A stretch of DNA of 64,000 nucleotides from positions 1 to 64,000 of the forward strand of contig NZ_JAINDZ010000023.1 in assembly GCF_019802345.1 (NCBI RefSeq), given 5' to 3'. The first letter of the stretch is position 1; every line of letters begins with the position of its first letter. The position numbers and the translations under genes were made by a program. The notes beneath the pieces were generated by a model. The model searched no databases. It saw nothing but the letters and a program-made list of their open reading frames with translations, and was not told the DNA's origin. The stretch is from Methylosinus sp. Sm6 (lineage in GTDB: Bacteria; Pseudomonadota; Alphaproteobacteria; Rhizobiales; Beijerinckiaceae). Positions 24,858 to 31,391 of this stretch are shown here, piece after piece.

Positions 24858-24965
24858 TCACATCAAGTTCATCTTGATGTAGCGCCACAGGTCCCTGAGA
24901 TTGATCGCGATCAGCAGCAGCACGAGGCCGAGGACGATCAGTCCGAAGATGCTCGCTCCGCTCAT
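24858..24965 (-). CDS. 35-residue single-span membrane protein ending the hydrogenase operon (DUF6893-like)
   Basis: A frame of 35 codons begins with an ATG that overlaps the stop of the protease gene as ATGA, the same coupling used by other pairs in this operon. The product is a single hydrophobic helix (FGLIVLGLVLLLIAI, residues 7-21) followed by a conserved-looking basic tail: NLRDLWRYIKMNLM. This matches my memory of a family of about 40-residue proteins (DUF6893) with a helix and a tail like LPDLxRYLxIRxM found near actinobacterial hydrogenase genes. It could anchor or recruit the soluble hydrogenase to the membrane. That role is inference. The length is below usual annotation cut-offs. 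Confidence 0.72.
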   Translation of the reverse strand: MSGASIFGLIVLGLVLLLIAINLRDLWRYIKMNLM

Positions 24966-25462
24966 TGGAAACTCCTTCGGTTGCTATCGGCCTCGCGCAG
25001 CGAGGCGACGAGACGTTCGACGAGCCGCGCCGCCGGCGCCACCGCCGCCGCGACCGGCGCGCTGAGCGCCATCGCGCCGTCATCTCCGCCGAGCGTCAGC
25101 GGCTCACAGGCGACGAGCAGCAGCCGCGGGCACGGGCCGCCCATTTGCGCGACGCTGCGCAGCACCGAGGCCGGATCGAGATCATGCGCCGAAACGATCG
25201 CCTCGTCCTCGTCATCGCCGATCTGCGGCTCGACCACGGACAAGGTTCCGGGCTCCTCGCCGCGCGGCGCCGCATCGACGAGAATCGCAATGTCGTAGCC
25301 ATCGGTCAGCGCGAAGGCGAGATCGACGCCGCGAATGCCGAAATCGACGACGTCCGCCTCGCGCGCCAGCACGCCGCCCGCCAGAGCGCGCGCGACCTCG
25401 ACGCCGAAAGCGTCGTCGCCGCGAAAGATGTTGCCGATGCCGGCGACGAGAATGCGTGTCAT
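24962..25462 (-). CDS. [NiFe]-hydrogenase maturation endopeptidase (M52, HyaD/HupD-like)
   Basis: This 166-residue cytosolic protease removes the C-terminal extension of the hydrogenase large subunit after nickel insertion. Its M52 motifs are GIGNIFRGDDAFG at residues 8-20, with Asp 16 or 17 as a nickel ligand, Asp 63 in LVDAAPRG, and His 93 in SAHDLDP. These correspond to Glu16, Asp62 and His93 of HybD as recalled. It sits in the same operon as its presumed substrate hhyL, whose last 24 residues would be removed. It overlaps neighbours on both sides by ATGA junctions. Confidence 0.92.
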   Translation of the reverse strand: MTRILVAGIGNIFRGDDAFGVEVARALAGGVLAREADVVDFGIRGVDLAFALTDGYDIAILVDAAPRGEEPGTLSVVEPQIGDDEDEAIVSAHDLDPASVLRSVAQMGGPCPRLLLVACEPLTLGGDDGAMALSAPVAAAVAPAARLVERLVASLREADSNRRSFQ

Positions 25463-26745
25463 CGCCCGCCTCCCTCGAGCGGCTCCAGCTCCTGCGGCGA
25501 GAAGAAGAAGCGATGGCCGGGAAAGCCCGCTGCGCCGAGATCGGCGCCGGGATCGTCGACGAGCGTCACCGCGACATGCGCGCGCCCCTCGAAATCGCGC
25601 TCGATCGCCTCGATCACCGCAATTCTGCCGCCGAGCGCCATGTCCATGATGTCGCCTCCCGCCTTCGGCGCGATGCGCATGCGAGCGCCGACTGCGAGGC
25701 GCGCGACATCGCCGTCCGGCTCGCGAAGCGGCCGAAAGGCGCCATGCAGCGCGTCGAGATCGTTCTGCGTCATGCTCTCGCAGCGCTGCAAGATGTCGCG
25801 CGCGCGCGGATCGGCGGCGGCCATCTCGCGCTTCTCTTCCTGCGAGAGCGTGCGCACGCGCAAGGTCAGCAATTCGTCGATCTCGGCGCTGTCGAAGAAG
25901 GCGTTGCGGCTTTCGGGCGCGACCTGCGGATAGTCATAGAGGATGATCGGCGAAGCGAGCATCATGTCGCGCGCGCCGGCGTCGCCGACCAGCGTCGGCC
26001 ATAATCCATCATTGGCGCAAGCGGTCGCCGCGGTGCGATGCCGTTCGGGCGGATCGAGCAGCGACACGAAGGCGCCGCCGCGCGCCCCGAGGATCAAATG
26101 CGCGGAGAGAAAGACGCGCGCCCGCGCCGCTTCGCGCTCCGGCGCGCTCGCGGGCGGCGACAGATTTTCGACGGCGACGCTCACGCGAATGAGATCGCCC
26201 TCCAGCTTCGTCGCCGACACGACCATCTCGCCCTCCACCGCCTCGCTGCTGCGCGCGATCACGGCGACGATCTCGCCGGCGCGCGAGCGGATGGGCTCGA
26301 GCTCGCGCCTCGCTGCGAAGGAGAAGCGCAGGCGTCGCGCCTCGCCGATGAGATCGGCGATCGCCGCCGCGTCGATATCGACGCGGCGCTCGATCGCTTC
26401 CTCGAAGGAGACGAATTGCGCGCCGTCGACGACGACCGAATCCGCCGCGCGATACTGCGCGATATCGTCGAGCTCGACGGCGGGGCCCGAGAGCTCGCCG
26501 ACCTCGCGCCTGCGGTTCTGCAGAAAGCGCAGCGCGAGATCGAGCTCCGCGCCGGCGCCTGCCTCGATCAGAATTTCCGCGCGCATCGACGCGGCCTCGC
26601 CGCCGTCGCGCCGCGCCTCTTTGGGATGAAGCTCGCCGAACATCCAGCGCCGGCGATTCTTCATCGCCGACGGGCGATAGGGATAGAGCATGTAGCCTTC
26701 ATAGAGAACGGCGTCGGCGATCGGCTTCACGCGGTCGATATTCAT
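25459..26745 (-). CDS. Conserved hydrogenase-operon protein of unknown function (428 aa)
   Basis: This soluble 428-residue protein has no Cys-rich motif and no signal peptide. The N-terminus holds a striking block, ADAVLYEGYMLYPYRPSA then KNRRRWMFGELHP, at residues 10-43, which I recall as conserved in proteins beside group 1h hydrogenases in Actinobacteria. The remainder is charged, with many Arg, Glu and Asp and predicted mixed alpha/beta structure. The C-terminal 80 residues (VGARMRIAPKAGGDIMDMAL and ending HRFFFSPQELEPLEGG) look like a small beta domain. The start is set by the ATGA overlap with the DUF6084-like gene; a longer frame upstream is just the neighbour read out of frame. A role in hydrogenase assembly is inferred only from context. 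Confidence 0.82.
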   Translation of the reverse strand: MNIDRVKPIADAVLYEGYMLYPYRPSAMKNRRRWMFGELHPKEARRDGGEAASMRAEILIEAGAGAELDLALRFLQNRRREVGELSGPAVELDDIAQYRAADSVVVDGAQFVSFEEAIERRVDIDAAAIADLIGEARRLRFSFAARRELEPIRSRAGEIVAVIARSSEAVEGEMVVSATKLEGDLIRVSVAVENLSPPASAPEREAARARVFLSAHLILGARGGAFVSLLDPPERHRTAATACANDGLWPTLVGDAGARDMMLASPIILYDYPQVAPESRNAFFDSAEIDELLTLRVRTLSQEEKREMAAADPRARDILQRCESMTQNDLDALHGAFRPLREPDGDVARLAVGARMRIAPKAGGDIMDMALGGRIAVIEAIERDFEGRAHVAVTLVDDPGADLGAAGFPGHRFFFSPQELEPLEGGGR

Positions 26746-27392
26746 GGCGCGGCCCCCGTCGTGACCTCGTCGAGGAGGCGCGCGACGGCGTCCTCCTCCC
26801 CGAGCAATCCCATGCGCCGCTGATAGCGACGCAGCCGCTCGAGCGTCGCCGCGCCGAGACGAATCCAATCGCCCTCTCCGTAATGTCTCGTCATCAGCCG
26901 CTCCAAGGTCGCGACCGGCAGACGGAACGGCGCTTCCTTCGACCAGGGTATCTGCTCGATCTGCAGCGCGCCGCCCTCCTCCGCATAGAAGACCGAGCCG
27001 CTGAACAGAAACGACAGCGGCGCCGCGCCCTCGACGAGCGCGTCGAAATATTTGGCGCTGGCTGCGGCGATGTCGCGCGTGCAGGCGACGGGCAGCCGCG
27101 CCACCGTCTCCTCGCCGAAGGCGGGAACGGCGACGCTCGCATGAGCGAAGACGAAGCTGCGCATCGATCGCGCCCAATGCTCCGGCGCGCCGAACAATTC
27201 GACGAGCCGCTCCTTCTCCGCCGCGCGATAGGCGCGGCGCGTCGGCTCGATGCGGATTTGACAGCTCAGCATCACATTGCGAATGCGCGCGCGCGGCGTC
27301 AGATTGGCGATGCGCAGACAGAAGACGAGCAAGGGCGAGACCGAGAACGGCTCCGCCTCGACGGCGCTCACCTCGAAGGAGAGATCAACCAT
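26742..27392 (-). CDS. DUF6084-like hydrogenase-associated protein
   Basis: This 216-residue soluble protein matches the DUF6084 pattern as I recall it: an N-terminal LSFEVSAVEAEPFSVSPLL, LSCQIRIEPTRRAY near residue 45, the W in GAPEHWARSMR, and LPVACTRDIAAASAKYFDAL near residue 105. Further blocks are PLSFLFSGSVFYAEEG and FRLPVATLERLM. The family is largely restricted to group 1h hydrogenase clusters, with unknown function; the beta-rich N-terminus suggests a scaffold. It overlaps DUF5947-like gene by eight bases and the 428-residue gene by four. Confidence 0.85.
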   Translation of the reverse strand: MVDLSFEVSAVEAEPFSVSPLLVFCLRIANLTPRARIRNVMLSCQIRIEPTRRAYRAAEKERLVELFGAPEHWARSMRSFVFAHASVAVPAFGEETVARLPVACTRDIAAASAKYFDALVEGAAPLSFLFSGSVFYAEEGGALQIEQIPWSKEAPFRLPVATLERLMTRHYGEGDWIRLGAATLERLRRYQRRMGLLGEEDAVARLLDEVTTGAAP

Positions 27393-27993
27393 GGACGAAT
27401 AGTCCTTGCTCCGGCGCTTCGCTCAGCGAAGCGAAAAAGCGCTCGACCTCGTCCCATAGACGGGCGCCGCCCGAGAGTCCCTCCCAGCGTGCGCGCACGA
27501 GGCCGATGAGCGCATAGCAGCGATCGATCGACACGCGAAAATACCGCCCGGCGCCGCGACGATCGACGAGCAGCGCTTCGACGTCGGGAGTCATGTCGAA
27601 CAGAATCGGATTTGCGGCGGCGAGCGCGGACCAGGCGTCCTCGCTCAGCACGGATTCGATCCCGCCCGCGGGGCTCGGATAGATGGCGAGCGGACGACGC
27701 TCCTCACCGCTCTCCAGCAGAAAGGCGAGATCGATCGGAATCTGCAGACTGTCCCAGAGATCGTCCGGCAATGTGAAGTCCGCGAGCGCCAGGGTCGCCG
27801 GAACGATGACGCGCAGCGGGCCGCCGGCCGATGCGCGAATGCAGGCCTCGCAGGCGCAGAGGATGCGACGGCTGTGCGGCTCCATCACATGCCGATGGGC
27901 GGCGTCGAGCGCAGCTCCGCAGAGCTCGCAGCGTTCCGCACGGCCGTCGTCCGCGACGAAGCGACGGATTCTGGACACCCAGCCGATGGTCAT
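27385..27993 (-). CDS. DUF5947-like Cys-rich hydrogenase-associated protein
   Basis: This 202-residue protein carries a probable metal site near the N-terminus: CELC (Cys 22, 25), His 33, 35 and 40, then CACEAC (Cys 46, 48, 51). The spacing suits a zinc ribbon or rubredoxin-like site. The remainder has VPATLALADFTLPDDLWDSL and IAFLLES-like IDLAFLLESGE near residue 85, and a typical YPSPAGGIES block. I recall this as DUF5947, a family tied to group 1h hydrogenase operons. It could be an electron carrier or assembly factor; which metal it binds is not known. It starts three bases after the stop of the NifU-like gene. Confidence 0.82.
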   Translation of the reverse strand: MTIGWVSRIRRFVADDGRAERCELCGAALDAAHRHVMEPHSRRILCACEACIRASAGGPLRVIVPATLALADFTLPDDLWDSLQIPIDLAFLLESGEERRPLAIYPSPAGGIESVLSEDAWSALAAANPILFDMTPDVEALLVDRRGAGRYFRVSIDRCYALIGLVRARWEGLSGGARLWDEVERFFASLSEAPEQGLFVHG

Positions 27994-27996
27994 GGC

Positions 27997-28488
27997 TCAC
28001 TCCGCGAGGCTCGGCGCAGCCGGGGCGCGATCCTCGATGATGATGCTGTCGAGATCGGGGGCGGCCTCGGTGAGCGTCCGCTCGATCTCGCGACGCGCCG
28101 TCGCGCGGTCCGCTCCCTCGTCGGGCAGGCGCAAAGACACGCGAGCGACGGCGTGAGACACGTCCAGAAGATCGATCGACGCGCCCCATGTCTCGCGCAA
28201 GCCGGCGATAGCGCGCCGCAAGCGCGCCTCGGGCTCCTCGGGATGCAGCCCGTGCAGCAGAAGCGCCGCCGACACATAATCATCGGCCGCGAAGGCGGCG
28301 AGCAGACGCCCGCCCTCGGCTCCGCTGGAGGCGATGGTCAGCACGCGCGCGAGCGCGAGCCCATGCAGATCGAGGCAGGAGTCGAGCAGCGTGCGCGCCA
28401 GCGTGCGGGCGGGCGTGTCGCGCGTCTCTTCCAGCGCCTCGATCAGCCGCTCCATCCGGCTCAGACATTCGGCGAGCGCGTCGCTCAT
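27997..28488 (-). CDS. NifU-like C-terminal domain protein lacking its CxxC
   Basis: This 163-residue protein has an N-terminal helical part (RMERLIEALEETRDTPARTL), a LLLHGLHPEEPEARLRRAI linker near residue 77, and a C-terminal NifU-like fold (ASIDLLDVSHAVARVSLRLP then IERTLTEAAPDLDSIIIED). Family members beside other group 1h hydrogenases normally carry a CxxC after the LRL strand, as I recall. Here that position reads LPDEGADRATARRE and the only cysteines are residues 8 and 38. It therefore should not bind a NifU-type Fe-S cluster. The ATG overlaps the hhyL stop, with GGAGGG just upstream. Confidence 0.75.
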   Translation of the reverse strand: MSDALAECLSRMERLIEALEETRDTPARTLARTLLDSCLDLHGLALARVLTIASSGAEGGRLLAAFAADDYVSAALLLHGLHPEEPEARLRRAIAGLRETWGASIDLLDVSHAVARVSLRLPDEGADRATARREIERTLTEAAPDLDSIIIEDRAPAAPSLAE

Positions 28489-30290
28489 GATCCCTCCCGC
28501 GGCGCGCCGAACATCGGCGAATGAACGCGCTCGAGCGTGCGGCCGGCGCCGAGATACATATGCACGCCGCAAGGCAGGCAGGGATCGAAGCTGCGCACCG
28601 TGCGCATGATGTCGATGCCCTTGAACTTGTCGCGGCCGTTCTCCTCGAACAAAGGCGTGTTCTGCACGGCGTCCTCATAGGGACCCGGCGTGCCGAAGTC
28701 GTCGCGCGGCGTCGCGTTCCAGGGCGTCGGCGGATAGGGATGATAATTGGCGATCCTGCCGTCGCGGATGACGAGATGATGCGAGAGCACGCCGCGCACC
28801 GCCTCGTGGAAGCCGCAGCCGATGGCTTCGTCCGGCACGGTGAAATCCGTCCAGGTGCGCGTGCGCCCCGCCTGCACCTCGGCGAACGCCTTGTCGATGA
28901 AATGATAGGCGAGCGCCGCGCAATAGGCCTGAAAGTAAGTGCGCGCCCGGTTGCGCTCGATGGCGTTGCTCCATTTCGGAATTTTCCACTCGAACTCGCG
29001 CTCGGGCCGCAGCGCGGTCTTGGGCAGATAAATCTTCACGCTTTCGCCCGTCGATTTGACATAGCCGACGTCGACGAGCCCGGCGAGCGCGGTGGACCAT
29101 AGCCGCGCCAGCGCGCCGCCGCCGGTGTCGAGCGCGAGATGGTCGCCCGTGCGCTTGTCGTACCAGCGCGGGCACATCACCCAGGAGTAATTGCCGTCGA
29201 AGTCGCGTTTCTGCGGCCGCGGGATCGTCGTCTGATTCCAAGGATGGCGCTGGTCCACCGGATTGCCGAGCGGGTCGGCGGCGACGAAGATCTCGCGGCT
29301 CTGCCAATCATCGTAGAAGCTCGCGCCGAGCAGGATGCGGATATTGAGATTGATGTCGACGAGATCGGTCGTCACCAGCTTGCCGTCGACGATGACGCCG
29401 GGCGTGACGAACATAGCGCGGCCCCAATCGGTCATCGTCTCGTAGCGATAGTCGCATTTGTCCGGATCCTGAAAGGCGCCCCAGCAGCCGAGCAGGATGC
29501 GGCGCTGTCCCACGGCTTCGTAGCCGGGCAGAGCCTCGTAGAAGAAATCGAACAGATCATCGTGCAGCGGCACGCATTTCTTCATGAACTCGGCATATTT
29601 GACGAGGCGAACCAGATATTCGGTGAAGAGCTGCACCGAGGGCGTCGTGCCGACGCCGCCCGCATAGAGCGTCGACGGATGCACATGGCGCCCTTCCATC
29701 AGGCTGAACATTTCGCGCGTGTAGCGCGAGACATATAACGTCTCGCGATAGAACTCGCCGGTGAAGGGATTGAGCGCCGTCATGATGTCGGCGATAGTGC
29801 GATAGCCGTGCTCGGCGGCATGCGGCGCCGGCGTCGATTGCGCCTTGGCCCAAACGCTCGGATTGGTCTCCTTGACCATCTGCTCGCAGAAGTCGACGCC
29901 GACGAGATTGTCCTGAAATATGTTGTGATCGAACATATATTCGGCCGCCTCGCCGAGATTGATGATCCAATCCGCGAGCGGCGGCGGCTTGATCCCATAG
30001 GCCATGTTCTGCGCGTAGACGGAGCAGGTCGCGTGATTGTCGCCGCAGATGCCGCAGATGCGGCTGGTGATGAAATGCGCGTCGCGCGGATCCTTGCCCT
30101 TCAGGAACACGCTGTAGCCGCGAAAAATCGACGAGGTGCTGTGGCATTCGGCGACGCTGCGGTTGTCGAAATCGATCTTGGTGAATATGCCGAGGCTGCC
30201 GACGATGCGGGTGATCGGATCCCAATTCATCTCGACGAGATTGGGAGAGGACTTTCGCTCATCGTGGATGCGGCGCGCTTTCTCGTCCAT
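28485..30290 (-). CDS. hhyL: Group 1h [NiFe]-hydrogenase large subunit
   Basis: This 601-residue catalytic subunit oxidises H2 at a NiFe(CN)2CO centre. Nickel ligands are seen in RICGICGDNHATC (Cys 79, 82) and DPCLPCGVH (Cys 571, 574). The L1 form CGDNHATCS and the sequences FDFFYEALPGYEAVGQRR and YSWVMCPRWYDKRTGDH are typical of actinobacterial-type group 1h/group 5 enzymes. A 24-residue tail after His 577 would be cut off by the M52 protease of the same operon. Family members oxidise H2 at atmospheric or trace levels with O2 tolerance (known for Streptomyces, mycobacteria and Ralstonia). It follows hhyS by nine bases. Confidence 0.96.
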   Translation of the reverse strand: MDEKARRIHDERKSSPNLVEMNWDPITRIVGSLGIFTKIDFDNRSVAECHSTSSIFRGYSVFLKGKDPRDAHFITSRICGICGDNHATCSVYAQNMAYGIKPPPLADWIINLGEAAEYMFDHNIFQDNLVGVDFCEQMVKETNPSVWAKAQSTPAPHAAEHGYRTIADIMTALNPFTGEFYRETLYVSRYTREMFSLMEGRHVHPSTLYAGGVGTTPSVQLFTEYLVRLVKYAEFMKKCVPLHDDLFDFFYEALPGYEAVGQRRILLGCWGAFQDPDKCDYRYETMTDWGRAMFVTPGVIVDGKLVTTDLVDINLNIRILLGASFYDDWQSREIFVAADPLGNPVDQRHPWNQTTIPRPQKRDFDGNYSWVMCPRWYDKRTGDHLALDTGGGALARLWSTALAGLVDVGYVKSTGESVKIYLPKTALRPEREFEWKIPKWSNAIERNRARTYFQAYCAALAYHFIDKAFAEVQAGRTRTWTDFTVPDEAIGCGFHEAVRGVLSHHLVIRDGRIANYHPYPPTPWNATPRDDFGTPGPYEDAVQNTPLFEENGRDKFKGIDIMRTVRSFDPCLPCGVHMYLGAGRTLERVHSPMFGAPREGS

Positions 30291-30299
30291 CTCGTTCTC

Positions 30300-31391
30300 C
30301 TAGAGCGGGTAGACTTCCTCGGGCTTGTCGGGATGATAGCCGGTGGTGCGCTCGGCCTCGTTGTGCCGCCATTTCGGCTCTCTGCTCAGCGTCGAATTGG
30401 TGAGGCGGCGCAGATTGCGGATGAGGAATCCATAAGGCGTGACCAGCGTGGAGGAGATGCGCGCGCCGGGCGGCTCGTCCATGAACGGCATGAGCTTGTC
30501 GGGAAAGCCCGGCATGGTGCAGCCGATGCAGATTCCGCCGACGTTCGGGCAGCCGCCTATGCCGGAGATCCAGCCGCGCTTTGGCACATTGCATTGGACG
30601 ACCGGTCCCCAGCAGCCGATCTTCACCAGGCATTTGCGCGAGCCATATTCATGCGCGAAATCCGCCTGCTCGTAATAAGCGGCGCGATCGCAGCCCTGAT
30701 GCACCGTCATGCCGAACAGCCATTTCGGCCGCAGCTCCTCGTCCAGCGGAATCATCGGCGCGAGGCCGGCGAGCTGACGCAGCACATAGAGCAGCGTCTC
30801 CATGAAATTGTCCGGCTGCACCGGACAGCCGGGGACATTCACGATCGGCAATCCCGCTTTCGACTGCCACTGCCAGCCGAGATAATCGGCGAGGCCCATG
30901 CAGCCGGTCGGATTGCCTTTCATCGCGTGCACGCCGCCATAGGTCGCGCAGGTCCCCGCCGCGATCACGCCCAGCGCCTTGGGCGCGAGGCGATCGATCC
31001 ATTCGGTGGTCCTGATCGGCTGCCCGGTCTCCGCATCCGTGCCCACGGCCGCCCAATAGCCGTCGCCGCTCAGATGCTCATTGGGGATCGAGCCTTCGAC
31101 GACCAGCAGGAAATTGTCCAGCTCGCCGCGCGCGGCCTGATGAAAGAAGCTCATAAAATCATCGCCGACCTCATAGGCGAGAACGGCGTTGTGCAAATGG
31201 ACCTTCGGCAGGCCGGGAACGGCGCCGAGCAGAACATCCTCTATGCTGGGCTCGCTCGCAGCCGTGATCGAGACCGTGTCGCCGTCGCAGGAGAGGCCGG
31301 CGGTGATCCAGAGGATATGCACCTCTTCGATGTTCGGAACATGCTGGGTAGAGCGTCCATAAGGGACAGTGTCCCGAGCCGCCTCGACCAT
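30300..31391 (-). CDS. hhyS: Group 1h [NiFe]-hydrogenase small subunit
   Basis: This 363-residue electron-transfer subunit carries three Fe-S clusters. The proximal-cluster region is WITAGLSCDGDTVS, in which Asp 38 sits where other families have Cys; a 3Cys-1Asp proximal cluster is known from the Ralstonia group 1h enzyme. The other proximal ligands are Cys 148 (GTCATYGG) and Cys 189 (GCPVQP). Medial and distal ligands lie in HQGCDR, RKCLVKIGC, CNVPKRG and GGICIGCTMPGFPD. No twin-arginine signal is present, so the enzyme should be cytoplasmic. GGAGG sits five bases before the ATG. It is the first gene of an eight-gene operon. Confidence 0.96.
   Translation of the reverse strand: MVEAARDTVPYGRSTQHVPNIEEVHILWITAGLSCDGDTVSITAASEPSIEDVLLGAVPGLPKVHLHNAVLAYEVGDDFMSFFHQAARGELDNFLLVVEGSIPNEHLSGDGYWAAVGTDAETGQPIRTTEWIDRLAPKALGVIAAGTCATYGGVHAMKGNPTGCMGLADYLGWQWQSKAGLPIVNVPGCPVQPDNFMETLLYVLRQLAGLAPMIPLDEELRPKWLFGMTVHQGCDRAAYYEQADFAHEYGSRKCLVKIGCWGPVVQCNVPKRGWISGIGGCPNVGGICIGCTMPGFPDKLMPFMDEPPGARISSTLVTPYGFLIRNLRRLTNSTLSREPKWRHNEAERTTGYHPDKPEEVYPL

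Follow-up and report, generated by a model that had tools for sequence, protein, structure and literature searches.

A conserved transmembrane microprotein at group 1h [NiFe]-hydrogenase loci of six bacterial phyla, a candidate membrane tether

The group 1h [NiFe]-hydrogenase (Hyd-1h) carries neither a signal peptide nor a membrane helix; how it gains access to the membrane and to quinone has been described as unknown, and membrane association has been reported to accompany high affinity (PMC7174314). The enzyme of Methylacidiphilum fumariolicum SolV has no signal and no transmembrane helix in either subunit, yet it associates with the membrane, possibly by way of an unknown partner (PMC7174314), and two hypothetical membrane proteins, MfumV2_0985-6, have been mentioned for this strain (Schmitz et al.). 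The group 1h enzyme of Ralstonia eutropha H16, HofKG (PDB 5aa5), is reported to be cytoplasmic and of low affinity (PMC7174314). Here, we report a computational analysis of a Hyd-1h operon of the alphaproteobacterium Methylosinus sp. Sm6, located within positions 1 to 64,000 of contig NZ_JAINDZ010000023.1 (assembly GCF_019802345.1), a stretch that we refer to as the window. The operon encodes the small and large hydrogenase subunits (HhyS and HhyL), a homologue of HhyE, a DUF5947 protein, a DUF6084 protein, a conserved accessory protein of 428 amino acids (p428), an M52 maturation protease and, in its last gene, a 35 amino acid peptide with a single predicted transmembrane segment, here denoted TM35. 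Operons of this kind have been described before, whereas the conserved transmembrane microprotein is new.

The closest relative with a solved structure is the R. eutropha enzyme, with which both window subunits align over nearly their full length. The locus on the R. eutropha plasmid pHG1 shares the gene order of the window, including an open reading frame (ORF) for a microprotein after the protease gene, and differs in the presence of hypF-hypC downstream. More remote points of comparison are provided by TorE and NapE, small membrane proteins that help to anchor a respiratory partner more firmly (PMC6134056), which we liken to TM35 by anatomy and reported role although their partners are c-type cytochromes, and by HucM of the group 2a hydrogenase Huc. 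The latter is a non-catalytic partner that links the hydrogenase to the membrane and to quinone but, as a 188 amino acid scaffold with a C-terminal coiled-coil tube, it is unrelated to TM35 in size and anatomy (PMC10017518).

The TM35 gene overlaps the protease gene by 4 nucleotides, and its product is the only one of the eight window proteins with a transmembrane-like hydrophobic segment (19-residue maximum of 2.82, compared with 1.18 to 1.57 for the others). Its relatives share a C-terminal tail, mostly of the form D-[IL]-x-R-Y-[LI]-[KR]-I-[RS]-x-M-stop, and the end of the window peptide, RYIKMNLM, fits the combination of a helix with R-Y-x(4-6)-M at the extreme C-terminus, within a Hyd-1h locus. 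Because the microprotein is so short, a tblastn search with the window peptide alone recovered relatives in only 3 of 80 loci. These loci (L009-L088) are the best 80 of 588 confirmed relatives, a sample that is biased toward close relatives and includes short contigs. A scan of the sequence behind the protease gene turned up a similar short hydrophobic ORF in most loci. In the controlled version of this test, short hydrophobic ORFs were picked, without reference to the motif, within 700 nucleotides after the M52 gene, in loci that have this gene and at least 300 nucleotides beyond it, and were scored for the tail as [RKT][YL]-x(4-6)-M at the C-terminus. Of 65 qualifying loci, 59 contained a short hydrophobic ORF at this place, and in all 59 one such ORF carried the tail. 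Elsewhere in the same loci, the tail was found in 5 of 536 short hydrophobic ORFs, three of which are displaced microproteins (L023, L068 and L080), while the other two look like chance occurrences. The six loci with no short hydrophobic ORF within that distance of the protease gene are these three together with L042, L050 and L062. A six-frame search for the motif over 1,171,393 bases yielded 65 matches, 62 of them on the same strand as the M52 gene and no more than 800 nucleotides after it.

An alignment of the 33 C-terminal residues of 69 motif hits reveals a hydrophobic stretch from about position -30 to -15. The near-invariance of R, Y and M in this alignment was selected by the motif and hence is not independent evidence; outside the motif, an acidic residue (D or E) is present at -11 in 66 of the 69 sequences, and P, K or R at -12 in 65. 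The C-terminal flank of the hydrophobic stretch is more positively charged than the N-terminal flank in 60 of 69 ORFs, equally charged in 4 and less so in 5 (means of +2.8 and +0.6, in a count for which start codons were set by rule and weakly hydrophobic ORFs were dropped). By the positive-inside rule, this distribution suggests a topology with the N-terminus outside and the C-terminus inside. In several Acidobacteriota, the N-terminal half is different and the tail is the same, an indication that function resides in the tail.

The ratio of nonsynonymous to synonymous differences (pN/pS, uncorrected) in the predicted frame was 0.45 among Methylocystaceae (n=9), 0.27 among Burkholderiales (n=12) and 0.24 in the acidobacterial set (n=4, of eight sequences intended), compared with 1.10 to 3.03 in shifted frames. 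Judged by these ratios, the ORF is under purifying selection as a protein. The possibility that the 35 amino acid ORF is a chance reading frame was rejected on the strength of this in-frame selection and of the contrast between 59 of 59 and 5 of 536 tails.

For comparisons across genomes, we built a 54-row profile of the microprotein (A1) and used DUF6084 as a stand-in for the Hyd-1h operon. Among 296 genomes of Actinobacteria, 27 encode DUF6084, 22 match A1 at E<=0.01 and 18 have both; at E<=1e-4, the profile matches 16 of 27 genomes with DUF6084, one of the 16 being a profile row, versus 1 of 269 without it (Fisher's exact test, 1.9e-18). Nine of these genomes have DUF6084 alone: the ORF was seen on reading in four (G303, G333, G391 and G559), and the locus is cut by a contig end in two (G337 and G398). 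In the host order, represented by 249 genomes, the sole match is the host, itself a profile row, and the other 248 have neither an A1 match nor DUF6084; as the host match follows from the construction of the profile, it is these 248 negatives that carry the information. Among 268 genomes of Verrucomicrobiota, DUF6084 is found in four and A1 matches in five; both occur only in G281, a profile row, and the remaining A1 matches, four in number, are weak, with E-values no better than 6e-4. All 51 genomes or records behind the Hyd-1h loci match A1 at E<=0.05, including 16 that supplied no profile rows in addition to the 35 that did.

Where the microprotein is missing after the M52 gene, it can be found elsewhere: in L023, L068 and L080 at another place in the locus, and in the L042 and L050 genomes behind hypB (read by eye) within the same hydrogenase supercluster (L126 and L127). 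Two copies, one following the M52 gene and one following hypB, are present in both L055 and L057, and the genome of L054 has an additional copy at a distance of about 3 kb from a possible hypE. On the Mycobacterium intracellulare plasmid, the ORF lies between the p428 and M52 genes. The microprotein is linked to Hyd-1h loci in six phyla, as named in the records: Pseudomonadota, Acidobacteriota, Actinomycetota, Chloroflexota, Verrucomicrobiota and Planctomycetota. Two variants were also seen. In L038, L047 and L082, two microprotein ORFs stand in tandem after the protease gene, and the M. intracellulare plasmid has a second microprotein-like ORF (L128:7323-7523), between genes for phosphoribulokinase and a HAD hydrolase, with about 25 more residues beyond the tail.

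A further rearrangement is that of SolV and Methylacidiphilum kamchatkense Kam1, two of the four verrucomicrobial genomes with DUF6084, where we used the window proteins as tblastn queries against the stretches around hhySL. As in the window, hhySL are accompanied by a microprotein that combines a hydrophobic helix with a tail of the kind described (ending RYLRIRQM); unlike in the window, the microprotein is diverged and its gene lies directly upstream of hhyS, and the opposite strand carries the genes for M52, DUF6084 and the p428 homologue. HhyE and DUF5947 were not found in these stretches by the same searches, in agreement with PMC6688271, which reports the absence of hhyE from the surroundings of hhySL. 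Our counts of AMO matches (three in SolV and four in Kam1) likewise equal the pmoA counts given there (PMC6688271). An initial reading that SolV and Kam1 have no microprotein was rejected: the profile scores fall below threshold, yet a tail-bearing ORF is present. The idea that the microprotein is a mere companion of M52 was also rejected, given that in both genomes it adjoins hhyS with M52 on the other strand. The hydrophobic ORFs further downstream in SolV lack the tail, so the microprotein is probably not one of the MfumV2_0985-6 pair.

The gap after the protease gene holds the ORF on pHG1, on a Methylocystis parvus plasmid and on a Kitasatospora plasmid; the gene tables of PLSDB, which are incomplete by design, omit it in these three records, where neighbouring locus tags run in steps of five, and also in the M. 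intracellulare plasmid. Neither the 35 amino acid ORF nor the four accessory proteins have a name in NCBIfam. In Pfam, 44 of the 54 profile members match DUF6893 (PF21833) at E<=0.01, a family whose function is given there as unknown. A search of open-licence PMC papers (preprints were outside this scope) found no mention of the name DUF6893, and we found no earlier recognition of a hydrogenase-linked microprotein in the papers searched; the novelty of the finding is only as good as that search.

The reading that we lean toward, by a modest measure, is that the microprotein is a membrane tether of Hyd-1h. In the mechanism that we infer, in its topology, binding, tethering, effect on affinity and electron route alike, HhySL would be an uptake hydrogenase of group 1h that is made in the cytoplasm together with the protease and the accessory proteins, and the last gene would supply a 35 amino acid single-pass membrane protein whose N-terminus lies outside and whose basic C-terminal end lies inside. 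This tail, in which conservation extends as far as the final Met, would dock on the hydrogenase, with the C-terminal extension of HhyS as the candidate site. An enzyme that is otherwise soluble would in this way be held at the membrane, from where electrons could reach quinone directly or via DUF5947 or HhyE. In favour of a tether we count the tail in 59 of 59 ORFs after M52, the in-frame selection, the co-occurrence with the operon across genomes, the displaced copies, the place next to hhyS in SolV and Kam1, the membrane association of the helix-free SolV enzyme, the charge bias of the flanks, and the fact that no other protein of the operon has a transmembrane-like segment. A more ambitious proposal, to which we give somewhat less than even weight, is that the microprotein is an unrecognized, widespread subunit of group 1h enzymes that recruits the soluble hydrogenase through its Met-ending peptide, and that this capture at the membrane gives rise to the apparent high affinity for atmospheric H2.

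Several observations weigh against a tether. R. eutropha has the microprotein ORF although its enzyme is reported to be cytoplasmic (PMC7174314); overproduction without the matching microprotein might explain this, but that is a guess. Among the 27 actinobacterial genomes with DUF6084, no microprotein was found in about 15.5 kb in G395, G419 and G477, and the plasmid record of Streptantibioticus cattleyicolor (L095), the fifth of five Hyd-1h plasmid records and one that comes with no gene table, has no copy in 17.8 kb. Conversely, four actinobacterial genomes match A1 without DUF6084. In G317 and G446 the matches are weak and stop short of the end of the profile, whereas G490 and G564 match beside maturation genes (beside M52, hypF and hypC in the former; at a contig edge before hypA in the latter; the hyp genes were read by eye). 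In the genome of L062, the sole match sits amid unrelated genes on a separate contig (L125), as does a weak extra copy in the genome of L049 (L122). The window peptide scores 15.3 bits against DUF6893, under the Pfam cut-off of 24.6, and the SolV and Kam1 ORFs, which score 13.8 and 10.3 bits against our profile and lack the acidic residue at -11, were recognized by tail and place. The stretch fetched from G644 (L161), the third such verrucomicrobial genome, searched in the same way as SolV and Kam1, showed neither hhySL nor a microprotein ORF. Finally, in the majority of loci the microprotein is a neighbour of M52, as might equally be expected of a maturation factor. As a separate observation, the loci L141 and L143, of G395 and G419, belong to a more distant Hyd-1h clade, with HhyL about 66% identical to that of the window and M52 present.

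A role of this sort, with the microprotein as a membrane-located maturation factor that works with M52 or the Hyp proteins and is not a subunit of the finished hydrogenase, would be in keeping with its position, shortly after M52 in 59 of 65 loci and behind hypB elsewhere, and with the arrangements M52-microprotein-hypF-hypC in G490 and microprotein-hypA in G564. It sits poorly with SolV and Kam1, where the copy directly precedes hhyS and M52 is on the opposite strand, and with the host order, where the host alone matches although other hydrogenases served by M52 and Hyp proteins are expected among the 249 genomes; we consider it unlikely. Alternatively, there may be nothing new here, and an ordinary Hyd-1h operon would make its membrane contact through HhyE or DUF5947. 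Mycobacterium smegmatis requires HhyE to oxidize H2, and HhyE and PHG067 are the published candidates for the electron acceptor (PMC6883350). The latter probably corresponds to DUF5947, as suggested by gene order, and the cysteine site of DUF5947 is kept in 77 of 77 homologues. On the other hand, CxxC occurs in just 30 of 80 HhyE homologue ORFs (a count made with crude ORF boundaries, one ORF being cut to 6 amino acids) and is lacking in the 163 amino acid homologue of the window, so the proposed electron-carrier role of HhyE cannot be general, and HhyE as a universal acceptor was rejected. Moreover, neither HhyE nor DUF5947 was detected in the SolV and Kam1 stretches when the window proteins served as tblastn queries, and the window copies of both lack a transmembrane-like segment. 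We regard an ordinary operon with membrane contact through HhyE or DUF5947 as a distinctly unlikely account. The statement in the initial annotation that the operon has no obvious electron acceptor gene thus overlooked two published candidates and was nevertheless apt with respect to the window HhyE homologue, with its missing CxxC.

A direct part in electron transfer, in which the microprotein would go beyond tethering, help to form a quinone site or channel next to the distal HhyS cluster and so replace cytochrome b or HucM in minimal form, is suggested by the lack of cytochrome b among the eight window genes and its lack of detection in the Hhy operon of M. smegmatis (PMC6883350), as well as by the use of HucM in group 2a Huc to bring menaquinone to HucS (PMC10017518). 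However, the invariant positions of profile A1 are Y, M and nearly R only, with no conserved redox ligand, and we hold such a role to be quite improbable. Hydrophobic peptides of about this size are common as toxins, and the shortness and hydrophobicity of the ORF and its absence from the gene tables of the four plasmid records would also suit a type I toxin-like peptide, a leader peptide or a chance ORF unrelated to the hydrogenase. The conservation of the tail across phyla, the purifying selection and the linkage to Hyd-1h even in rearranged clusters all speak against this, making it very improbable indeed.

Turning to the operon as a whole, the eight ORFs, all on the minus strand, occupy positions 24858-31391 of the contig, which is denoted C78 in the host genome (5.13 Mb, 162 contigs); their features are given in Table 1. 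The initial annotation had described a complete eight-gene group 1h operon here, and both the genes and their completeness are borne out. Its tally of five accessory genes already included the 35 amino acid ORF, but not the recognition that this is a widely conserved transmembrane microprotein.

Table 1. Genes and features of the Hyd-1h operon in the window
Feature	Coordinates	Strand	Remarks
hhyS, [NiFe]-hydrogenase small subunit, group 1h	30300..31391	-	363 aa; C35-x-x-D38; conserved extension at the C-terminus; lacks a Tat motif
hhyL, [NiFe]-hydrogenase large subunit, group 1h	28485..30290	-	601 aa
HhyE/NifU-like homologue without CxxC	27997..28488	-	163 aa; from position and similarity; homologues annotated 'NifU family'
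DUF5947 protein, site C..C...C.C..C	27385..27993	-	probably the PHG067 counterpart, from gene order
DUF6084 protein, predicted beta sandwich and helices	26742..27392	-	function unknown
Conserved accessory protein (p428), no Pfam match	25459..26745	-	428 aa
M52 hydrogenase maturation protease, HycI/HupD-type	24962..25462	-	
Single-transmembrane microprotein (TM35), DUF6893-like, tail DLWRYIKMNLM; proposed Hyd-1h membrane tether	24858..24965	-	35 aa
Shine-Dalgarno-like AAGGAG 5' of the microprotein ATG	24972..24977	-	

Five of the seven gene junctions overlap, four by 4 nucleotides and one by 8. The order hhyS-hhyL-163 aa-DUF5947-DUF6084-428 aa-M52 recurs among the 80 best relatives, with rearrangements (the accessory genes precede hhyS in several Verrucomicrobiota), which indicates that the arrangement is not due to chance. 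Homologues in the 80 loci number 78 for HhyS, 80 for HhyL, 75 for the 163 amino acid protein, 72 for DUF5947, 71 for DUF6084, 70 for p428 and 68 for M52. Group 1h enzymes have been reported and studied in several alphaproteobacterial methanotrophs, including M. bryophila H2s and M. aurea KYG (PMC12319191), so the suggestion that the trait would be notable in a methylotroph is outdated. Given this precedent and the recurring gene order, the hydrogenase and its seven-gene core are, by gene content, of an ordinary, known type that is conserved across phyla.

The assignment to group 1h, made from PDB sequence matches, motifs and gene content, holds on several counts. Among PDB sequences, HhyL is by far closest to R. 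eutropha HofG (1171.6 bits; next, 155.3) and HhyS to HofK (664.4 bits; next, 151.7); a proximal-cluster Cys of HhyS is replaced by Asp38; no twin-arginine translocation (Tat) motif was seen on reading the HhyS N-terminus; and the accessory cluster DUF5947-DUF6084-p428-M52 is present. The C-terminal extension of HhyS is conserved in 81 sequences. Trace-H2 scavenging by the window enzyme is something that we infer from its group membership.

The remaining accessory proteins yield few clues. The p428 protein has 48 invariant columns in 19 sequences and neither a Pfam family nor a relative among PDB sequences; its predicted model is of moderate quality (pLDDT 76.8) and has weak fold matches to DrmA and to nitrile hydratase beta / PetP-like proteins. 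The model of DUF6084 is of good quality (pLDDT 88.5) but matches generic beta sandwiches, with a query TM-score below 0.4 among the matches listed.

The host genome contains one pmoA/AMO match, and the nearest HhyL among named genomes (89% identity) is that of a Methylocystaceae metagenome-assembled genome, both of which support a methanotrophic host. A 16S search of the genome gave no match, so that the placement comes from pmoA and protein relatives. The hyp genes are indeed unlinked to the operon: the only hypD match of the genome is on contig C70, beside other hydrogenases. That region (38.7-53.5 kb) encodes, along with hypD, large subunits of 483 and 620 amino acids and a 349 amino acid large-subunit-like ORF. 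Two further [NiFe] large subunits are encoded on contig C22. One (47.7-49.2 kb; L090:11689-13218, minus strand), with M. smegmatis Huc (7uus, 336 bits) as the nearest solved structure, may be a group 2-type uptake or sensing hydrogenase; the other (88.0-89.3 kb; L091:12014-13339, minus strand) is group 3b-like, the nearest solved structure being a cytosolic hydrogenase/sulfhydrogenase alpha subunit (228.7 bits).

A gene of about 100 bases that is easily missed by gene callers travels with Hyd-1h in six phyla. Its product is a concrete candidate for the missing piece in the membrane association of Hyd-1h, and makes that question directly testable.

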